In this document: positions 5,102 through 46,745 of the stretch, piece after piece
How positions within the stretch are numbered: position 1 is the stretch's first letter
How the letters are laid out: every line of letters begins with the position of its first letter
NCBI GenBank assembly: GCA_018268355.1
Contig: JAFDWR010000002.1
Span: forward strand, 1 to 64,000
Direction: 5' to 3'
Source of the DNA: Armatimonadota bacterium
GTDB lineage: Bacteria; Armatimonadota; Fimbriimonadia; Fimbriimonadales; Fimbriimonadaceae
DNA length: 64,000 nucleotides
Notes under the pieces: model-generated
Databases searched by the model: none
What the model was told of the DNA's origin: nothing
What the model saw: only the letters and a program-made list of their open reading frames with translations
Translations under genes and position numbers: made by a program

Positions 5102-7711
5102 ATGCGATTTGACAAACTCACCATCCGCGCCCAAGACGCCATCCAGGACGCCCAGAACCTTGCGACCGAGTTCCGACACTCGAACATCGATGCCGAGCAC
5201 CTCCTGCTCGCGATGTTGACCCAAGAAGATGGGATCGCCGCGCCCCTTTTGGAGCGACTGGGCTCCAGCCCCACGCGCGTCATCGAGAACCTGAAGAAGG
5301 AGCTCTCGAACATGCCGGCGGTGCAGGGTTCGGCTAGCTACGGGGCGAATCTCTCGGGACGACTCACCAGCCTCGTAAACGTGGCCTTCAACGACGCCAA
5401 CAAGATGGGCGACGAGTTTGTTTCGACCGAACACTTCCTCCTTGGCATGGTCGACGATTCCGGCGTGGCGGGCAAGCTGCTTCGCGCCGAAGGCATCAAG
5501 CGCGACGCCCTCGAGAAGGCAGTTTCCACCCTGCGCCAGGGCCGAAAGATCGAGGATCAGCACGGCGAAGACCGCTATCAAGCGCTTGAGAAGTACGGCA
5601 TCGACATGACCCGGCGGGCCGCCGAAGGCAAGCTCGACCCCGTCATCGGTCGCGACGAGGAGATTCGCCGCGTCATCCAGGTCCTCAGCCGCCGAACGAA
5701 GAACAACCCCGTCCTCATCGGCGAACCCGGCGTTGGAAAGACCGCCGTCGTTGAAGGGCTTGCCCAGCGCGTGATGAAGGGCGATGTCCCCGAATCGCTG
5801 CGCGGCAAGTCAGTGATTGCGCTGGACCTCGGTGCTCTTGTTGCGGGTGCGAAGTACCGCGGCGAATTCGAGGATCGACTCAAGGCCGTCCTCGAAGAGA
5901 TTTCGAAGGCGGAAGGCCGCATCGTGCTCTTCATCGATGAGCTCCACACCCTGGTCGGTGCGGGCAAGGCGGAAGGCGCGATGGACGCCGCCAACATGCT
6001 CAAGCCGATGCTTGCCCGTGGCGAGCTCCGCTGCATTGGCGCGACCACCCTCGACGAGTATCGCAAGTACATCGAAAAGGATGCCGCCCTCGAGCGACGA
6101 TTCCAACAGGTGCTCGTTGACGAGCCGACGGTCGAAGAGACGATCTCGATCCTGCGTGGACTAAAGGAGCGCTACGAGATCCACCACGGCGTGCGGATCA
6201 CCGACAGTGCCCTCGTCGCCGCCGCCACCCTCAGCCAACGGTACATCACCGAGCGATTCCTCCCCGACAAGGCGATTGACCTCGTCGACGAGGCCGCGAG
6301 CAAGCTGAAGATGGAGATCGACAGCGTCCCTTCGGAGATCGACGAAGTCGAGCGTCAGATTGCCCAACTTGAGATCGACCGTCTTGCCCTGCGCAAGGAA
6401 GAGGACGCCGCGAGCCAAGAGCGACTCGCCCAAACCGAGCGACGCCTCGCCGACCTCACCGAAAAGGCTCAGGCCCTCCGCGCCGAATGGTCGAACGAAA
6501 AGGCAGGCATCGAGGAGATTCGCAAGTTGAAGGGCGAGCTGGATTCGTTGCGCCAATCGCTCGAAGTCGCCCAGCGCGACGCCGATTGGGCCAAGGCTTC
6601 CGAGATTCAATACGGGCTCATCCCCGCCGTCCAACGCCAAATCGACGAGAAGTCGAACGCGGTCGCGGCCCAAGACGGCAAGAGCCCGATGCTGAAGGAG
6701 ATGGTCGATTCGGACGACATCGCCGCCGTTGTCAGCAAGTGGACGGGCGTCCCCGTGAGCAAGCTGCTCTCGGGCGAAATGCAGAAGCTGCTCTCGATGG
6801 AGAGTGCTCTGGAAGAGCGCGTCATCGGCCAGAGCGAGGCGATCTCCGTCCTCAGCGATGCGGTTCGCCGGGCCCGCTCCGGCCTCAGCGACCCCCACCG
6901 ACCGATCGGCAGCTTCCTCTTCTTGGGACCCACCGGCGTCGGAAAGACGGAGACCGCCAAGGCCCTCGCCGAGTTCCTCTTTGATGATGAGCGAGCGATG
7001 GTCCGCATCGACATGAGCGAGTACAGCGAGAAGCACTCGGTGGCGCGGCTCATCGGTGCCCCTCCCGGATACATCGGCTTTGACGAAGGTGGCCAGCTCA
7101 CCGAAGCGGTGCGCCGCCGACCGTACAGCGTCATCCTGCTCGACGAAGTGGAAAAGGCCCATCCGGAGATATTCAACGTCCTCCTTCAGGTCCTCGACGA
7201 CGGTCGCATGACCGACGGTCAGGGCCGAACGGTGGACTTCAAGAACTCGGTGATCCTGCTCACAAGCAACCTCGGCAGTCAGTTCTACGCCGACCCGATT
7301 GCGGCGAGCGAGCACTGGGACGAGACCAAGCGCAACGTGATGGACGTGGTGCGCGGATTCTTCCGACCCGAGTTCATCAACCGACTCGACGACGTGATCA
7401 TTTTCCGATCGCTCCAGGCGAACGACATCAAGCGGATCGTCACGATTCAGCTCGACCAGCTTCAGGAGCGGCTCCGCGAACGAAGAATCACCCTCAAGGT
7501 CAGCGATGAGGCCATTGTTCAGCTCGCAAGTGCAGGGTTTGACCCGGTCTATGGCGCACGTCCGCTCAAGAGGGCGATCCAAGCCTCGCTGATGAATCCG
7601 CTCGCCCAGGCCCTCCTGCGCGGCGACATCCGCGACGGCCAAACCGTGACCGTGGACTACTCGGCGGGAGCGTTCCACTTCGTGCCTGCCGAGACTCCGG
7701 TCGAAGCGTAA
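5102..7711 (+). CDS. clpB: ATP-dependent disaggregase ClpB
   Basis: 869-residue AAA+ chaperone that with DnaK/DnaJ extracts and refolds aggregated proteins; the usual length is about 860. In order: Clp N-domain repeats (1-150), first AAA domain with Walker A GEPGVGKT near 206 and Walker B VLFIDE, a coiled-coil middle domain of about 110 residues (about 410-520, rich in E/K/L, as in ClpB and not ClpA/C), and a second AAA domain with GPTGVGKT near 610 and [13 protein letters not shown]. No ClpP-binding loop was noticed. Start ATG at 5102. A TACACT box lies 9 bases upstream; no CIRCE element or sigma-32-type site is visible, so heat-shock control cannot be read from the sequence. Confidence 0.98.
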
Positions 7712-30334: not shown

Positions 30335-30404
30335 TAAGCACAGAGTATCGCTTTTTCGAACCCCCGGCGGGTACACCTATGGGTGGCAAAGGACCACTTT
30401 GACC

Positions 30405-30493
30405 GCCCGCAGGGGGAGCTGAAAGGCTGAGAGTCGCCACGCGCGAGACCCCGAGAACCAGAACCAGATAATGCTGGCGTTGGGATTGCGAGG
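30405..30493 (+). promoter_or_regulatory. TPP riboswitch (THI element) aptamer
   Basis: Plus-strand RNA matches the thiamine-pyrophosphate aptamer: GGGGGAGC, loop, GGCTGAGAG (the CUGAGA core), variable P3a arm with TCGCC-ACGCGCGA, ACCCCGAGAACCAGA, CCAGATAATGCTGG (P4/P5 region) and GCGTTGGGA. P1 can form between about 30407-30411 (CCGCA) and 30487-30491. All universally conserved segments are in order and at family spacing. It is 87 bases upstream of a prepilin-like gene, not of a thiamine gene. No clear promoter was found in 30340-30400. Confidence 0.85.
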
Positions 30494-30500
30494 ACGACAG

Positions 30501-30592
30501 AGGCCTTCTTGAAGAGGAGCCAAAGCCGCCGAACGCAAGACGAATCGGCGGACAAGGACATCCCGACCCAAGAAAAACCATGAAGAAGGCCT
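30501..30592 (+). promoter_or_regulatory. possible expression platform sequestering the prepilin start
   Basis: AGGCCTTCTT (30501-30510) is perfectly complementary to AAGAAGGCCT (30583-30592), codons 2 to 5 of the prepilin gene, and encloses an inner 7-base stem CCGCCGA (30526-30532) / TCGGCGG (30545-30551). The outer stem would hide the start codon region. Whether ligand binding toggles it is inference; part of the complementarity arises because AGGCCT is itself palindromic. Confidence 0.45.
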
Positions 30593-33730: not shown

Positions 33731-36700
33731 CTATTCGACGAGCTTGATCGTGATGATCTCGAACGGGCGATAGGGGACGACGACAAGGCCGTCTTGGATC
33801 TCCAGCTCGGCGATCGGGTTCTCTTCGAGGTCGCAGAGATAGGCTTCCTTCGGCGTGCGCAGACAGTGAAGCTCGGCAACGCCGCGGCTGTTGTGGCACT
33901 CATAGAGTCGAACCACGATGTTGTTGCCCACCTCGGCCTTCTTCACTGTCTCCACGACGATGTTTCGGTCGTCGCAGACGAGGAGCGGCGGCAGCAGCCC
34001 CGGAAGGCCCGCCTTCGGCTCAAGGAACGCATGGCGCACCGGCGCATTGACCGCGTAGGCGGCGGGGACGACGCCTGCGTACTGGTGGGGCCCAAAGTGC
34101 GGCATGAGGACGTAGGTGAACCGGTGGACGCCCATGTCGCACATCGGGTCGGGCGCCTTCGGCGAACGGAGGAGCGAAAGCCGCATGACGTTGCCGCGCA
34201 CATCGTGGCCGTACTTGCCGACATTGAGCAGCGAGACGCCCTGGTCGCCTTCTGAAAGGTCGATCCACTTCTGGGCGCAGATCTCAAAGCGCGCCTGGTC
34301 CCAGCTCGTGTTGACGTGGGTGGGTCGGTCGACGGAGCCGAACTGAATCTCGCAGGTCGCCCGCGGGGAGTGGACGTTCACCGGGAACGCCACCTTCAGC
34401 ATGCGGTCTTCCTCGTGCCAGTCGATCTCGGTGTCGAATCGAACGCCCGGGGTCGGTCCGAGCGAGATTCGCTGCCGAATCGTCGACTTGCCGACCCGCT
34501 TCACGATCTCGGCGGCGACTCGAACCGGGCCCTTTTCGACGATCTCAAAGCTCTCGCTCTTGACGAGGTCTTGAGCGGTTTCGAACGCATAGATGTCGAC
34601 GTCCCATGCGCTCCAGAACTTCGGCTTGTCTTCGAGAATCTGGAACAGGTTCGCAAGCTTGCCCGGCTCGATGAACTCGGTGTTGTCCTCCAGGCTCTGG
34701 ATGCTTGTGATGTTGCCGTGGGCGTCAAACTTGACCGAGAGCTCGTGGTTCTCGATTCGACGGGGGCTCGCCTTGAGTCGGCTTCGCGAGGTGGCCGGCT
34801 GGCTCGAAAGGTCGCCGACGCAGACCGAGCGGAGCGCGGCATGCGGGGTCGGGAAGATGATCTTCCGCTCGCCGAACTCCTCGACGAGCTGGACGGGCAC
34901 GCTCTCGTCGGCGGTGATGAGGCTGTTCGGAGCCTCTTCCGCCGTCCACGGGATCTCGCCCTGCGAGGGAATCGCGGAGTTGTGGAAGAGGGCAACCGGC
35001 TGGGCCTTGCCTTCGGTGTCGAGCTTTTCGGCGATGCTGCGCAGGCTCTTTTCCACCAGCTCCGCACCCTTGGTCAGCACCTCGGCATAGTCCTTGTCGG
35101 CGTCTTCGTAGACCTCGCGAACCGACGAGCCGGGGATGATGTCGTGGAATTGGTTGAGCAACACGAGCTTCCAGAGTCGCTCAAGTTCGGCCGCATTGTA
35201 GTGCTTGGGAAAGTCCTCGACAAAGCAGGCGAGCCATTCCGCGTCGCGCAGGAGGAATTCGCTGAGGCGATTGTTCTTCTTCGTCGCGGCCTGGGAGGTG
35301 TAGGTGCCTCGGTGGAACTCGGCATAGAGCTCGCCGACCCACGTCATGAGGTCCTTGCTCTTCGCCTTTGCATCCTTAAAGAAGTTCAGCGCGCTCTTGC
35401 CGCTCGCCACTTCGGGGAAGTTCGGCGCGGTTCGTCCGCGGCGCAAGAGCTCAATGTGGCGCTCGGTGGGACCGCCACCGCCATCGCCCCAACCGAAGAC
35501 ATACAGCGAGGCGTCGGACCGACCCTTGTCGCGGTGGTTCTTGACCGCGCGCAGGATCTCCTTGGGTTCGCCGCTGCCGATGTAGGTGTCGGCGGGCGGG
35601 AAGTGAGTCCAAACCCGGGTGCCGTCGATCCCCTGCCACCAGAACGTGTTGTGGGGGAACTTGTTGGTGTCGTTCCAGCTGATCTTCTGGGTGAGGAAGT
35701 AGTGGATGTTCGACTTCGCGAGGATTTGGGGCAGCGCAGCGGAGTAGCCGAAGACGTCGGGGAGCCACATATCCTTGGTCTCGACGCCGAACTTGTCGCG
35801 GAAATACTTGCGGCCATAGAGGAACTGCCGGACGAGGGATTCGCCGCCGGTCAGGTTACAGTCGGCCTCGACCCACATCGAACCCACCGGTTCCCACTGC
35901 CCGCGCTTGATCGCGCGCTTCACGCGCTCAAACAGCTCGGGATACTCCTTCTCCAGCCATTCGTATTGGCTCGCCTGGGAGTGGACAAAGACGTATTCGG
36001 GATAGCGTTCGGCGAGCTCGAGCTGGGTCGCCGTGGTGTGGGCCATCTTCTTCTTGGTGATGTGGATCGGCCAAAGCCACGCGGTGTCGAGGTGGGCATG
36101 GCCAACGGGCACAAGCTGGTGCTTCAGCTCGCCTCCGAGGGAGGAGAGTGCCTCGCGCAAGAGCTTGCGGCAACGGGCGATGGTCTCGCGCTCCGAGGCC
36201 CGGAAGAGGTTGCAGACGTCGTTGAGTGCGCGCAGAATGGTCGCAAAGGCAGGATCGCCCTCATCGACCGCCTCGACGAGGTTGAGGCAGAAGTCAACAT
36301 CGTACTGGAGGTCCTTCAACTCGGGGTCGACCGCGACGAACCAGGCGCCCTGCACCTTGGCGACCTTCGGCTCGCGGGGGAGTTCCTTTAGGTGGACCCG
36401 GCACTGGGGGTTGTCGGTGTAAACCTGCACGTAGAAGGTGCCGTCGCCCGCTGCCTCGCCCAGAAGGACGGATTCGTGCGCCCAGTCAATGCCGGTTTTG
36501 GGCGCGTTGCCGCGCCATAGCGTTCGCTCGCCGCCGACCGATGCCTTAAGCGCGAGCACTTCGGTGGGGCCAAGTTGGGGCGCCTTGCCCTTCAAGCGGA
36601 ACCAAAACGTCGTGTAGGCAGGGCCATATTCGTAGCCCGCGTCGACCGGCGTCCAGGGCCCGGCCTTCGCGGCCTGGAGATCGGGATGGGGAACTTCACA

Positions 36701-36817
36701 GATCTCAACGGAAAGGGCGTCGAGCTGGCGGGTGGCGAGGGGGACCAGGTCTTGCTCGAGGAAGAGCTTGATGCGGGCGCGCGTCAGGTCGGAATGCTTG
36801 AGCATGGGCACGGCCAT
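33731..36817 (-). CDS. alpha-mannosidase, glycoside hydrolase family 38
   Basis: 1028-residue GH38 enzyme. The N-terminal part is a beta domain, then the catalytic domain with GHAHLDTAWLWPIHITKKK (zinc-binding His and Asp), WVEADCNLTGGESLVRQFLYG, and WLPDVFGYSAALPQI with the nucleophile Asp. Long C-terminal beta domains follow; the family typically measures 1,000-1,050 residues. Probably intracellular or periplasmic; no signal peptide visible. ATG 36817 was used; the open frame extends upstream to TTG 36856 and there is another ATG at 36805. It could release mannose from glycans or act on a reserve polymer. Confidence 0.92.
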   Translation of the reverse strand: MAVPMLKHSDLTRARIKLFLEQDLVPLATRQLDALSVEICEVPHPDLQAAKAGPWTPVDAGYEYGPAYTTFWFRLKGKAPQLGPTEVLALKASVGGERTLWRGNAPKTGIDWAHESVLLGEAAGDGTFYVQVYTDNPQCRVHLKELPREPKVAKVQGAWFVAVDPELKDLQYDVDFCLNLVEAVDEGDPAFATILRALNDVCNLFRASERETIARCRKLLREALSSLGGELKHQLVPVGHAHLDTAWLWPIHITKKKMAHTTATQLELAERYPEYVFVHSQASQYEWLEKEYPELFERVKRAIKRGQWEPVGSMWVEADCNLTGGESLVRQFLYGRKYFRDKFGVETKDMWLPDVFGYSAALPQILAKSNIHYFLTQKISWNDTNKFPHNTFWWQGIDGTRVWTHFPPADTYIGSGEPKEILRAVKNHRDKGRSDASLYVFGWGDGGGGPTERHIELLRRGRTAPNFPEVASGKSALNFFKDAKAKSKDLMTWVGELYAEFHRGTYTSQAATKKNNRLSEFLLRDAEWLACFVEDFPKHYNAAELERLWKLVLLNQFHDIIPGSSVREVYEDADKDYAEVLTKGAELVEKSLRSIAEKLDTEGKAQPVALFHNSAIPSQGEIPWTAEEAPNSLITADESVPVQLVEEFGERKIIFPTPHAALRSVCVGDLSSQPATSRSRLKASPRRIENHELSVKFDAHGNITSIQSLEDNTEFIEPGKLANLFQILEDKPKFWSAWDVDIYAFETAQDLVKSESFEIVEKGPVRVAAEIVKRVGKSTIRQRISLGPTPGVRFDTEIDWHEEDRMLKVAFPVNVHSPRATCEIQFGSVDRPTHVNTSWDQARFEICAQKWIDLSEGDQGVSLLNVGKYGHDVRGNVMRLSLLRSPKAPDPMCDMGVHRFTYVLMPHFGPHQYAGVVPAAYAVNAPVRHAFLEPKAGLPGLLPPLLVCDDRNIVVETVKKAEVGNNIVVRLYECHNSRGVAELHCLRTPKEAYLCDLEENPIAELEIQDGLVVVPYRPFEIITIKLVE

Positions 36818-36861
36818 TTTACTGAAAATTCGTTGAGCCTGAGCGAATCTGACCAAAAGCG

Positions 36862-36869
36862 ACTATAAT
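36862..36869. promoter_or_regulatory. overlapping divergent -10 boxes (mannosidase / DprA-like)
   Basis: ACTATAAT reads as TATAAT (36864-36869) on the plus strand and TATAGT (36867-36862) on the minus strand. The two start sites would be only some 20 bases apart, giving leaders of roughly 10 and 40 bases. A convincing -35 box was found for neither. Confidence 0.45.
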
Positions 36870-36885
36870 ACTTATTACTGGATTG

Positions 36886-38439
36886 ATGATCGAGTTTCAT
36901 GAGTACTCCGTCGTGTTTGCCGCGCTTTATCTGCGGGGCGGGCCTGCCTCTGGCTTGGTGGCGGGGGGCTTGCCGCGCGCCTCGGGGGCGCCCGAGGTCG
37001 AGCGGGCCTTACGGCGGCACGGCCTTGCGGCGGGTGAGCTTGGCTCGGTGCCGCGGGTGTTGCGCGAGGCTGGCATGTGGGTCGAGGCCGCGGTGCTAGA
37101 GTCGGCGGGGGTGCTCGCGGCCGCCGAGGCCCTCGTGCTCGCGGGCCGGGTGATGACGCCGTTCCTCGCGGGCGGGGCGGGCTATCTCTGGCCGTGGGGA
37201 GGCTTCGCGGGGTGCTCTTTGGGGGCTGGTGCTTGCAGTTCGCTGGGTTCTGGTGGTGGTTCGGGCGGTTCTTCGTCCGGTTCCTCTTTCGGGGGTTCTT
37301 CGGGGGCTGCTTCGGGCGGCTTTGGTTCGGGGGCGGGGGCCGCGCCTGCGGCTCCACGGTCGAGTCTTTCGGCGGGCTGGGGCGAGGCCTCCGGCACGGC
37401 GGGGCCCCCTGCGCTCTGGATGGAGGGTGAGTGGGCCCGGCCCCTCGCCGAGGGTGGCGCGGGGCTTCCCTCCCTCGTCGGGCCGGCGGTCGTGGTGGGG
37501 TCGCGGTGGTTGCCTTCAGATCGCCTCTCGGAGGGTTGTTCGGAGCGTTCTTCGGCTGGCTTTGCAGAGGCCGCCGCTGAGATGCGCTCCGGGGGTGCTT
37601 TCGCGGGTGCGTTTGAGGGGGCGTGTGCGGGGGCTTCGGGCGATGCTTCCTTGGGGGCCTTTGTGAGTGCTTGTGGGGGCGCCTCCGGGGATGCTTTTGA
37701 GGATGGCGGGTTGCCTTCGGGTGGTCCTCTGCGGCTTTGCTATGAGGTCGGCGCGGAGGTTCGGGCGTCGGGCTGGCTGCTTTCGGGAGGCGCGCCGGGC
37801 TGCGACGCCGCCGCTCTCGAGGGTGCGGCCGAGCGGGCGATCGCCCTTCTTCCCTGCGGCCTCGAGGCGAGCCGGTCGGGCTTCTTCGCCCGGGGCGCGC
37901 TTTCGCTCTCGGTCTGTGCGCCGGGGTCTCCGTTCTCCGCGGCCCAGGCGATGGAGCGCAATGCCCTTCTGTTCCGCGCCGCGCGGTGGGCCCTCGTCGG
38001 GCACTCCCGGTTCCGGCTCGGCGGGACGTGGGCGGGCGTCTCGGAGGCCCTGCGGGTGGGCGCTTGTCCGGTCTTTGTGGCGGGGGCGGGCGGCCCGTCG
38101 GGGCCGGTTTCTGCCGGGGCCGGGGGTGCTCCGGGGTCGTTTCCGGGTGGTTCGTTCTCGGGTGAGGCGTTCTATGAGGGGGCGTTCTCGGGGGGAGCTT
38201 CTGGCGGGTCGTTTGCCGGCGAGGCTGCGGGTGAGGCCGCCTTGGGCGCGGCGGTGCCCTTCTGCCCCGAGCATGCCCTCGCCCGGCGCGCCCTCCTTTC
38301 GCTCGGGGCGCGGCCCTTCGTCTCGGTCGCGGCCTGCGATGCCCTGGCCGCTGAGATCGCCTGTGGGCTCGCCAGCGTCCGCGCGCACCAGCTCTCCCTC
38401 GCGTTTGGCCCTCCTGGCCCTGCTTTGGGTTCCGCCTGA
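36886..38439 (+). CDS. dprA: DprA/Smf-like protein with Gly-rich insertions
   Basis: 517-residue protein. The conserved skeleton follows DprA (loads RecA on incoming ssDNA): PPALWMEGEW (PPxLyvrG equivalent, near 174), VVVGSR near 203-207, WLLSGGAPGCDAAALEGAAERAIALLPCG (SGxAxGiD variant, 297-324), MERNALLF (RNR-like, 356-363) and LGGTWAGVSEALRVGACPVF. Between these lie three low-complexity stretches of Gly/Ser/Ala (about 107-170, 212-282, 398-456) absent in ordinary DprA. The coding strand is unusually G-rich, with codons (GGG, TTC, GGT) unlike the neighbours. The C-terminal winged-helix domain of DprA is represented only weakly. No SD site; TATAAT 17 bases upstream. Two antisense frames are also open, discussed separately. 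Confidence 0.65.
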   Translation: MIEFHEYSVVFAALYLRGGPASGLVAGGLPRASGAPEVERALRRHGLAAGELGSVPRVLREAGMWVEAAVLESAGVLAAAEALVLAGRVMTPFLAGGAGYLWPWGGFAGCSLGAGACSSLGSGGGSGGSSSGSSFGGSSGAASGGFGSGAGAAPAAPRSSLSAGWGEASGTAGPPALWMEGEWARPLAEGGAGLPSLVGPAVVVGSRWLPSDRLSEGCSERSSAGFAEAAAEMRSGGAFAGAFEGACAGASGDASLGAFVSACGGASGDAFEDGGLPSGGPLRLCYEVGAEVRASGWLLSGGAPGCDAAALEGAAERAIALLPCGLEASRSGFFARGALSLSVCAPGSPFSAAQAMERNALLFRAARWALVGHSRFRLGGTWAGVSEALRVGACPVFVAGAGGPSGPVSAGAGGAPGSFPGGSFSGEAFYEGAFSGGASGGSFAGEAAGEAALGAAVPFCPEHALARRALLSLGARPFVSVAACDALAAEIACGLASVRAHQLSLAFGPPGPALGSA

Positions 38440-38466
38440 GCCTCCCTGCGCGGTAACCTTTCCGGC

Positions 38467-39498
38467 GTGAAGGCCATTGCAAAGACGCGACCGGCTCCAG
38501 GTGTAGAAATCGTTGACGTTCCCGAGCCGACCGTCGGTCCGGGGGAAGTGAAAATCAAGTTGGAGGCCGCCTCGGTTTGTGGCACGGACCTTCACATTTA
38601 CTCGTGGGATGATTGGGCCGCCGGCCGAATCAAGCCGCCCCGCATCATCGGCCACGAGTTCTGTGGAACGATCGTCGAGGTCGGCCCGGACGTCACCGAA
38701 CGCGCGGTGGGCGACTTCGTCGCAAGCGAATCGCACATTGTCCCGCGGTCATCGGCCTATCTCCAAGCAGGCCTCGGCCACGTCGCCCCCGAAACTTCCA
38801 TCCTCGGCGTCGATGTGGACGGCGGGTTTGCCGACTTCGTCGTTGTCCCCGTCGACAACGCCCGGCCCACCAGCCGCAGCATCCCGCCCAAGATCGCCTC
38901 GTTCCAAGATGCCCTCGGCAACGCGGTCCACACCGTGAACGACGGCCCCGTGGAAGGATGCGATCTCCTCATCACCGGCATGGGCCCGATCGGCCTCTTC
39001 TCGGTCGCGGTGGCGAAGGCCCTCGGCGCAAAGCGCATCGTGGTCACCGAGGTCAGCCCCTACCGCATCGGCCTCGCCGAGCAGATCGGCGCAGACGTCA
39101 TCCTCAACCCCGCCACCGACGACGTGGACGCCGCCCTCAGCCGACTCGCGCCCGATGGGTTCGACGGCACCCTTGAGATGTCCGGCCACCCGTCTTCCCT
39201 GCCCCTCGCGATCCGCCACACCAAGCCGGGCGGCCGCATCTCGCTCCTCGGCGTCTTCCCCCAAAACCAGCAGACCGTCGACCTCAATGCCCTGATCTTC
39301 AAGGGGATCCGCATGCAGGGCATCGTCGGGCGGAAGCTCTGGGAAACCTGGGACCAGATGGGCGAGCTGTTCAAGACAGGCAAGCTCAACCTCGACCCCG
39401 TGGTCACCCACCAGATGCACTTCACCGAGTTTGCAGATGCGATGGAGCTGATGAAGGCAGGCAGGGCGGGCAAGGTCGTCTTCACCTTCGACAACTAA
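38467..39498 (+). CDS. tdh: L-threonine 3-dehydrogenase-like zinc alcohol dehydrogenase
   Basis: 343-residue medium-chain dehydrogenase aligning with Tdh from end to end (PEPTVGPGEVKIKLEAASVCGTDLHIYSWDDWA..., GPIGLFSVAVAKALGAKRIVVTEV for NAD binding, FKGIRMQGIVGRKLWETWDQM). The catalytic zinc ligands are kept (C38 in SVCGTDLH, GHEFCG with H and E). The structural-zinc lobe CGHCRNCxxGxxHxC of Tdh is replaced by PRSSAYLQAGLGHVA, losing all four cysteines. GTG 38467 has TAACCT seven bases upstream (leaderless). No kbl gene next to it, so the substrate may not be threonine. Confidence 0.78.
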   Translation: MKAIAKTRPAPGVEIVDVPEPTVGPGEVKIKLEAASVCGTDLHIYSWDDWAAGRIKPPRIIGHEFCGTIVEVGPDVTERAVGDFVASESHIVPRSSAYLQAGLGHVAPETSILGVDVDGGFADFVVVPVDNARPTSRSIPPKIASFQDALGNAVHTVNDGPVEGCDLLITGMGPIGLFSVAVAKALGAKRIVVTEVSPYRIGLAEQIGADVILNPATDDVDAALSRLAPDGFDGTLEMSGHPSSLPLAIRHTKPGGRISLLGVFPQNQQTVDLNALIFKGIRMQGIVGRKLWETWDQMGELFKTGKLNLDPVVTHQMHFTEFADAMELMKAGRAGKVVFTFDN

Positions 39499-45884: not shown

Positions 45885-46745
45885 GTGAACCTGAAGACCA
45901 TCGCTCTCATGACCTGCGCTCTCGCCCTCGTTGGCGGCGCGACGGGTATCGCGCAAACCAAGAAGAAGTCGTCGAAGTCGAGCAGCAAGAGCTCGCGCGG
46001 CTACCGACCGACCGAAGTTGCTCTCGTCGGCATCAAGCTTTACGACACGGGTGTCCGCGTCGTCAATGTCTACGGCTCGCCCGACATGATCGAGGCCGTG
46101 AACATTGGCTCGTCGAACGCCGGCGGTGGCGGTGGCGGCAACGGTGAAGGCGGCGGCGGTGGCGGCGGTCTTCGCACGCCGAGCGGCCAGCCTGCTGCAG
46201 CTCCTGGCGCAGCCCAGAATTATCCGCTCTCGCGACCGGATGGCGAATTCGCCTTCGGTGACAGCGAGCTCATGCGACAAGGCAAGGAAGGACGGGGTGG
46301 CGGAGAGACCGGACTCGGTGGCGAAGGCGGCGGACAAGGCGGTCGACCTGGCCCCGGTGGTCCTGGTGGCGGAAGCCCCGGCCCTGACGGTCGAGGCGGC
46401 GGTGGCGTCGGCGGCGGCAGCAGCGAGCAAACCGAGCTCACCCGCTGGATTTACAAGCGCAACAACTCGAAGTACGGTTTTGTCATGGACAAGTTCAACC
46501 GAGTCATCCAGATCGAAGCGATCGGTCTGAAGAACACTCGAGCTCGAACGAGCCGCGGCGTCACCTTCGGCGACAGCTTTGCGAAGATCATCAAGGCCTA
46601 CGGTGCTCCGGATGGCTACGAAGTCGGCGGTAACAACGTGACCGTTCGATACCTCACCGCAAAGAAGGTTGCCTTCCGATTGAACCGAGTCCAGAAGGAC
46701 AAGCCGTACGTGGTCACGGGCATCGTGGTCGCGGCCGGTAAGTAA
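45885..46745 (+). CDS. secreted Gly-rich protein with duplicated BamE-like motif
   Basis: 286-residue exported protein (signal peptide MNLKTIALMTCALALVGGATGIAQ). After a Lys/Ser-rich linker it has the motif GIKLYDTGVRVVNVYGSPDMIE (about 52-72), a 100-residue Gly-rich linker (80-185), a short beta segment RWIYKRNNSKYGFVMDKFNRVIQIE, and a second copy GVTFGDSFAKIIKAYGAPDGYE (about 222-243). The motif resembles the BamE/SmpA-like GxT...V...G.Pd element of small lipoproteins. Start is GTG 45885 with GGAGGA 11 bases upstream. It ends 22 bases before dnaG. Function unknown. Confidence 0.65.
   Translation: MNLKTIALMTCALALVGGATGIAQTKKKSSKSSSKSSRGYRPTEVALVGIKLYDTGVRVVNVYGSPDMIEAVNIGSSNAGGGGGGNGEGGGGGGGLRTPSGQPAAAPGAAQNYPLSRPDGEFAFGDSELMRQGKEGRGGGETGLGGEGGGQGGRPGPGGPGGGSPGPDGRGGGGVGGGSSEQTELTRWIYKRNNSKYGFVMDKFNRVIQIEAIGLKNTRARTSRGVTFGDSFAKIIKAYGAPDGYEVGGNNVTVRYLTAKKVAFRLNRVQKDKPYVVTGIVVAAGK

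Follow-up and report, generated by a model that had tools for sequence, protein, structure and literature searches.

DprA-like proteins with roles outside competence are tied to toxin-antitoxin pairs and to phage defence. DprA homologues are known to act as antitoxins (PMC9122126), and the psyrTA toxin-antitoxin system pairs a RecQ-like helicase toxin with a DprA-like antitoxin (PMC8790059). Similarly, the DprA-like antitoxin RqlI limits the genotoxicity of RqlH, the harmful effect of which maps to its PRTase domain (PMC4670107). In HpDprA, Arg52 is one of three residues required for ssDNA binding, alongside Lys137 and Arg143 (PMC4489622). No description of an ancient toxin-less lineage of orphan DprA-like proteins was found in the literature searched.

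The window analysed here is a 64,000-nucleotide stretch from a genome (G000) whose relatives belong to the Fimbriimonadaceae, in the Armatimonadota. At 36886-38439 on the + strand it contains a gene encoding a 517-residue protein that lacks lysine entirely, and the four DprA motifs quoted in the initial annotation are all found in order within this reading frame. A TATAAT sequence at 36864-36869 (+), 16 nt before the start codon, is the likely -10 box, as judged by eye. Elsewhere in the window, Rfam identifies a 23S rRNA on the - strand (1-1986), cut by the window start, and a TPP riboswitch on the + strand (30402-30503).

The protein matches the DprA profile PF02481 only weakly, scoring 17.9 bits and so falling below the curated cut-off of 29.6, whereas an orthologue free of inserts reaches 76.6 bits. 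The core of the AlphaFold2 model has pLDDT values above 90, and solved DprAs are its best matches in both Foldseek and VIA-align (Z 20.8 to 3maj and 20.3 to 3uqz), with ShosA close behind in the structure search (VIA-align Z 17.8). The original reading as DprA thus holds for the fold but not for a competence DprA, as a canonical copy with a winged helix (202 bits) is encoded on contig 3 of the same genome and the window protein belongs to an orphan PsyrA/RqlI-like clade. The window protein has no match to the winged-helix domain DprA_WH (PF17782) and is matched by the PADLOC profile PsyrA (PDLC03927; 54.1 bits, E 3e-15), which also matches all 33 aligned homologues. Arg207 of the GSR motif (37498-37506, +) aligns with the ssDNA-binding Arg52 of HpDprA, and Arg358 of the ERN motif (37954-37962, +), invariant in the alignment of 33, aligns with Arg143; both arginines are therefore kept, while a counterpart of Lys137 is absent. 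The GGTW motif (38020-38031, +) is common to PsyrA-like proteins; at that position this genome's canonical DprA reads GSIH. The first alignment of the 33 homologues contained no conserved stretch usable for searching. We are confident that the gene is an orphan PsyrA/RqlI-like DprA paralogue, in both identity and orphan status. A third PF02481 protein in this genome (contig 1, L071:7063-7932; 37 bits) has degenerate motifs, with ASRG in place of GSR and TGHD in place of SGGA.

In a sister clade within the Fimbriimonadales, RqlH is encoded directly upstream of the DprA-like gene, as is the case for most homologues in other phyla. No RqlH is present at the orphan loci, nor in the window's genome, where the best helicase match is just 24% identical, and an active PsyrTA/RqlHI module at the window gene is accordingly rejected. 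A tree of 70 rows contains a branch (support 100/99) that has the RqlH-linked proteins on one side and the orphans, among them the window gene, on the other. Complete RqlHI/PsyrTA pairs of helicase-PRTase and DprA-like protein occur in at least eight Fimbriimonadales genomes (L054:5492-8448, L061, L068, L070 and others).

A profile match, either of the orphan type or of its sisters, is found in 85 of 85 family genomes, a count that includes a few genomes represented above the threshold by no more than a fragment, a canonical DprA or the RqlH-linked form. In most orphan loci (about 60), including some from another family in the order, the orphan is arranged head-to-head with a GH38 alpha-mannosidase gene, which in the window lies divergently at 33731-36856 (-). 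A zinc-dependent dehydrogenase gene downstream (38467-39498, +), beyond the A-poor stretch described below, is also near the orphan in several relatives, and -10-like hexamers can be seen by eye close to the start of many orphans. The spacings of the orphan core are near-invariant across 69 homologues (FS to ERN, 7 in 69/69; GSR to SGGA, 26 in 64/69). Close orphan pairs with usable dS give dN/dS values of 0.08-0.28 (these being relatives rather than the window copy, with one pair dS-saturated), and thus show purifying selection. As the window frame contains no frameshift or stop and its relatives have these dN/dS values, we reject the possibility of a pseudogene.

Three Gly/Ser/Ala-rich inserts of about 60-70 residues had been described in the protein, and comparison with the median of 69 tabulated orphan homologues confirms them, with excesses of 64 residues from LT to PALW, 67 from GSR to SGGA and 60 from the V.V strand to LGA. 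Insert 1 (approximately residues 104-172; 37195-37401, +) lies between LT and PPALW, is 78% G+S+A and is predicted to be disordered. Insert 2 (approximately residues 223-287; 37552-37746, +; 58% G+S+A) lies between GSR and SGGA, adjoining the presumed ssDNA-binding GSR loop, and contains a degenerate repeat of 16 residues (48 bp). Insert 3 (approximately residues 403-463; 38092-38274, +; 62% G+S+A) follows the VFV strand, a recurrent insertion site. The structural model that the initial annotation had called for places the inserts in or beside core loops, with pLDDT mostly below 50 and low-confidence stretches (96-159, 213-221, 232-270 and 403-447) that coincide with them.

While the inserts do occupy loops, their presence is not exclusive to the window gene, since other orphans also carry inserts, some at the same sites. 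Gly-rich inserts are found at sites 1 and 2 in G070 and at site 1 in G099, and several lineages have inserts at site 3 and in another loop, which follows PCGL. Insertion is therefore recurrent, located in loops, and non-homologous between lineages. The window gene is most closely paralleled by the G070 orphan (L221), which comes from another genus and has Gly-rich inserts at five loops within an open frame of 597 aa. Tandem repeats in the window gene are weak. The DNA of inserts 1 and 2 has no similar copies elsewhere in the genome and the inserts are not homologous to one another, so an origin as copies of a repeat element is rejected. Recurrent disordered inserts in a Rossmann core of otherwise invariant length provide a set of natural variants in which to study how folds take up low-complexity loops. 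Elsewhere in the window, a degenerate short CGG/GGCGGCGGCGGT repeat is present at 46121-46169, within a G/S/A-rich ORF (45885-46745).

The coding strand is G-rich, as had been noted, with a GC content of 73%; the accompanying A/T asymmetry had been overlooked, as had the lack of lysine. Adenine makes up 5.0% of the strand (AT skew -0.63) against 9.0% expected from the amino acids (z -8.4), and the next lowest value among 359 genes sampled from the same genome (20 stretches plus the window, using a simple codon-score ORF picker) is -4.4, belonging to a lipoate ligase-like gene (L082:17887-18522). Synonymous choices avoid A, with 32 GAG codons to no GAA, no CGA, and AGC for only 2 of 59 serines, TCN being used instead. 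The bias spans core and inserts alike and stops sharply at the ORF ends; z_A is below -2.5 in nine other orphans and in none of eight RqlH-linked genes. The synonymous A-poverty of the window copy is a separate nucleotide-level bias for which we have no good explanation. An antisense ORF (36875-38482) is dismissed as an expected by-product of the few T on the antisense strand. The G runs reported at 37291-37338 are real, but the G-quadruplexes proposed from them are not borne out: no canonical motif (loops 1-7) is present on the coding strand, and the five motifs with loops of up to 12 equal codon-shuffled controls. Since these long-loop motifs match shuffles of the gene's own codons, G-quadruplex potential beyond codon composition is not supported and a function for it is rejected.

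A lysine desert has been defined as a run of 150 aa or more, or of half the protein, without any lysine (Szulc et al., PMC10665810), a definition that fits the window protein, with 0 Lys and 29 Arg in 517 aa. Eight of the 43 orphans in the first set are lysine-free, and none of 355 neighbouring proteins of at least 200 aa is. Across 66 family orphans lysine is 4-fold below neighbouring genes (log2 fold -2.07) and lower in every one. In a separate comparison, K/(K+R) is 0.11 in orphans against 0.37 for their neighbours; the RqlH-linked sisters have 0.28 against 0.36. A, G, S, R, W and C are raised in orphans relative to neighbours, and K, N, I and D lowered. In 60 of the 66, lysine has dropped by more than the average for N, I, D, Q and T (Wilcoxon 8e-12, uncorrected for relatedness and hence too small, since orphans from a single family cannot count as independent), and this excess is uncorrelated with GC. 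Lysine loss is not merely a consequence of the A bias, because some lysine-poor orphans have normal synonymous A (L043, with 0 Lys and z_A -0.7, as well as L039, L040, L047 and L050). There is little doubt that the depletion of the orphan clade is real, and it has the appearance of selection against lysine in a functional, family-wide orphan. Cys and Trp are approximately 2-fold enriched in orphan proteins relative to neighbours, for which we have no explanation.

A Pup-type ligase is encoded in 83 of the 85 family genomes. On contig 3 of the window's genome (L185:4750-7108), a Pup ligase/Dop-like gene, a 59-aa ORF (6180-6359) and a proteasome subunit gene stand in a row; the ORF product ends in RQRSGQ and is presumably UBact-like. 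The only family genomes without the ligase are G028, which also lacks the proteasome, and G093, and their orphans are the least lysine-depleted in the family, with 18 Lys each. However, the ligase disappeared only once, within a single AT-rich genus of 1.5-Mb genomes, such that GC content and genome reduction confound the link between ligase and lysine. Further, an orphan from another family (L069 in G042) has 18 Lys although the ligase is present, and those of G066, G086 and G012 in the family are only mildly depleted alongside a ligase. Other residues with A-rich codons (N, I and D) are lowered too, which also counts against this link. Evasion of UBact as the cause of lysine depletion is plausible but tentative. 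To our knowledge, the targets of UBact and the possible evolution of proteins to avoid its tagging are largely open questions, and a lysine-free syntenic family beside lysine-bearing sisters allows a direct test of such escape.

The same composition could have arisen in an antitoxin relic that lost its helicase toxin and drifted under relaxed constraint towards GC-cheap residues (A, G, R and S), losing lysine and tolerating inserts. Long branches in the tree, the rise of A, G, S, R, W and C at the expense of K, N, I and D, and the coincidence of the most inserts with the most extreme composition in one copy all agree with such drift. Yet relatives have dN/dS values of 0.08-0.28, core spacings and motifs are invariant, the protein is present across the family, and lysine loss exceeds that of other A-codon residues by an amount uncorrelated with GC, leaving decay a possible but doubtful account. 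A nucleotide-level force, whether a mutational strand bias or selection acting on the mRNA to remove A (for example at RNase sites containing A), would account for both A-poverty and lysine loss, and is suggested by the z_A of -8.4, the avoidance of GAA and CGA, the replacement of serine AGC by TCN and the synonymous loss of A (z_A below -2.5) in some nine further orphans. The sharp end of the bias at the ORF, and the lysine-poor orphans with normal synonymous A scattered between lineages, make it an unlikely account.

Homology to PsyrA, RqlI and ShosA suggests an RqlI-like antitoxin that works in trans, its toxin being encoded at another locus, but this is hard to reconcile with the absence of RqlH from the window's genome and most other orphan genomes, and we consider it improbable. 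Least credible is a second competence or recombination mediator that loads RecA on ssDNA; it would fit the DprA fold and the retained GSR and ERN arginines, but the protein has no winged helix and no lysine at the K137 position, and a canonical DprA is present.

We instead propose, at a probability of roughly one half, that the gene encodes a vertically inherited, partner-less orphan of the PsyrA/RqlI/ShosA group that monitors ssDNA or nucleotides and from which lysine has been selected out, with escape from UBact as the most plausible reason, though one that is itself less likely than not. The proposal builds on features established computationally, namely fold, motifs, partner absence, synteny, purifying selection in the clade, insert disorder and lysine depletion. 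The orphan would be a DprA-like (SLOG/Rossmann) antitoxin-like protein passed down in the Fimbriimonadaceae without a helicase-PRTase partner. Its core may rely on arginine only, at the GSR and ERN motifs, to bind a nucleotide or ssDNA and so monitor the state of DNA, with the inserts as putative flexible, lysine-free loops next to the binding face. Lysine was probably removed by selection at the protein level, most plausibly to spare the protein UBact (Pup-like) tagging for the proteasome and so keep it stable. The fuller version, in which a family-wide, antitoxin-derived DNA or nucleotide sensor was purged of lysine for immunity to UBact and independently acquired disordered loops, poor in lysine, around the binding face, is rather speculative. 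If true, it would be a bacterial, DNA-linked case of selection to escape a ubiquitin-like system.

Compared with canonical DprA/Smf (PF02481), the window protein shares the fold (Z of about 20) and the GSR and RN arginines, but differs in lacking DprA_WH and an equivalent of K137, and coexists with a separate canonical copy. With ShosA, the DprA-like antitoxin of ShosTA, it has the fold in common (Z 17.8), although the sequences are distant and no PRTase toxin gene lies alongside. PsyrA and RqlI share with it a profile family (PDLC03927), the Rossmann core and the SGGA..D, RN and GGTW motifs; it differs from them in having no RqlH/PsyrT neighbour and no match to the C-terminal HTH of RqlI, and in its lysine depletion and disordered inserts. 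Pupylating bacteria and mycobacteriophages are enriched in lysine deserts (PMC10665810); as in the orphan clade, long lysine-less proteins there occur in bacteria with a ubiquitin-like tagging pathway. Those deserts are mainly from Actinobacteria and mycobacteriophages, whereas the present clade consists of orphan DprA-like proteins from Armatimonadota, in genomes with UBact-type components.
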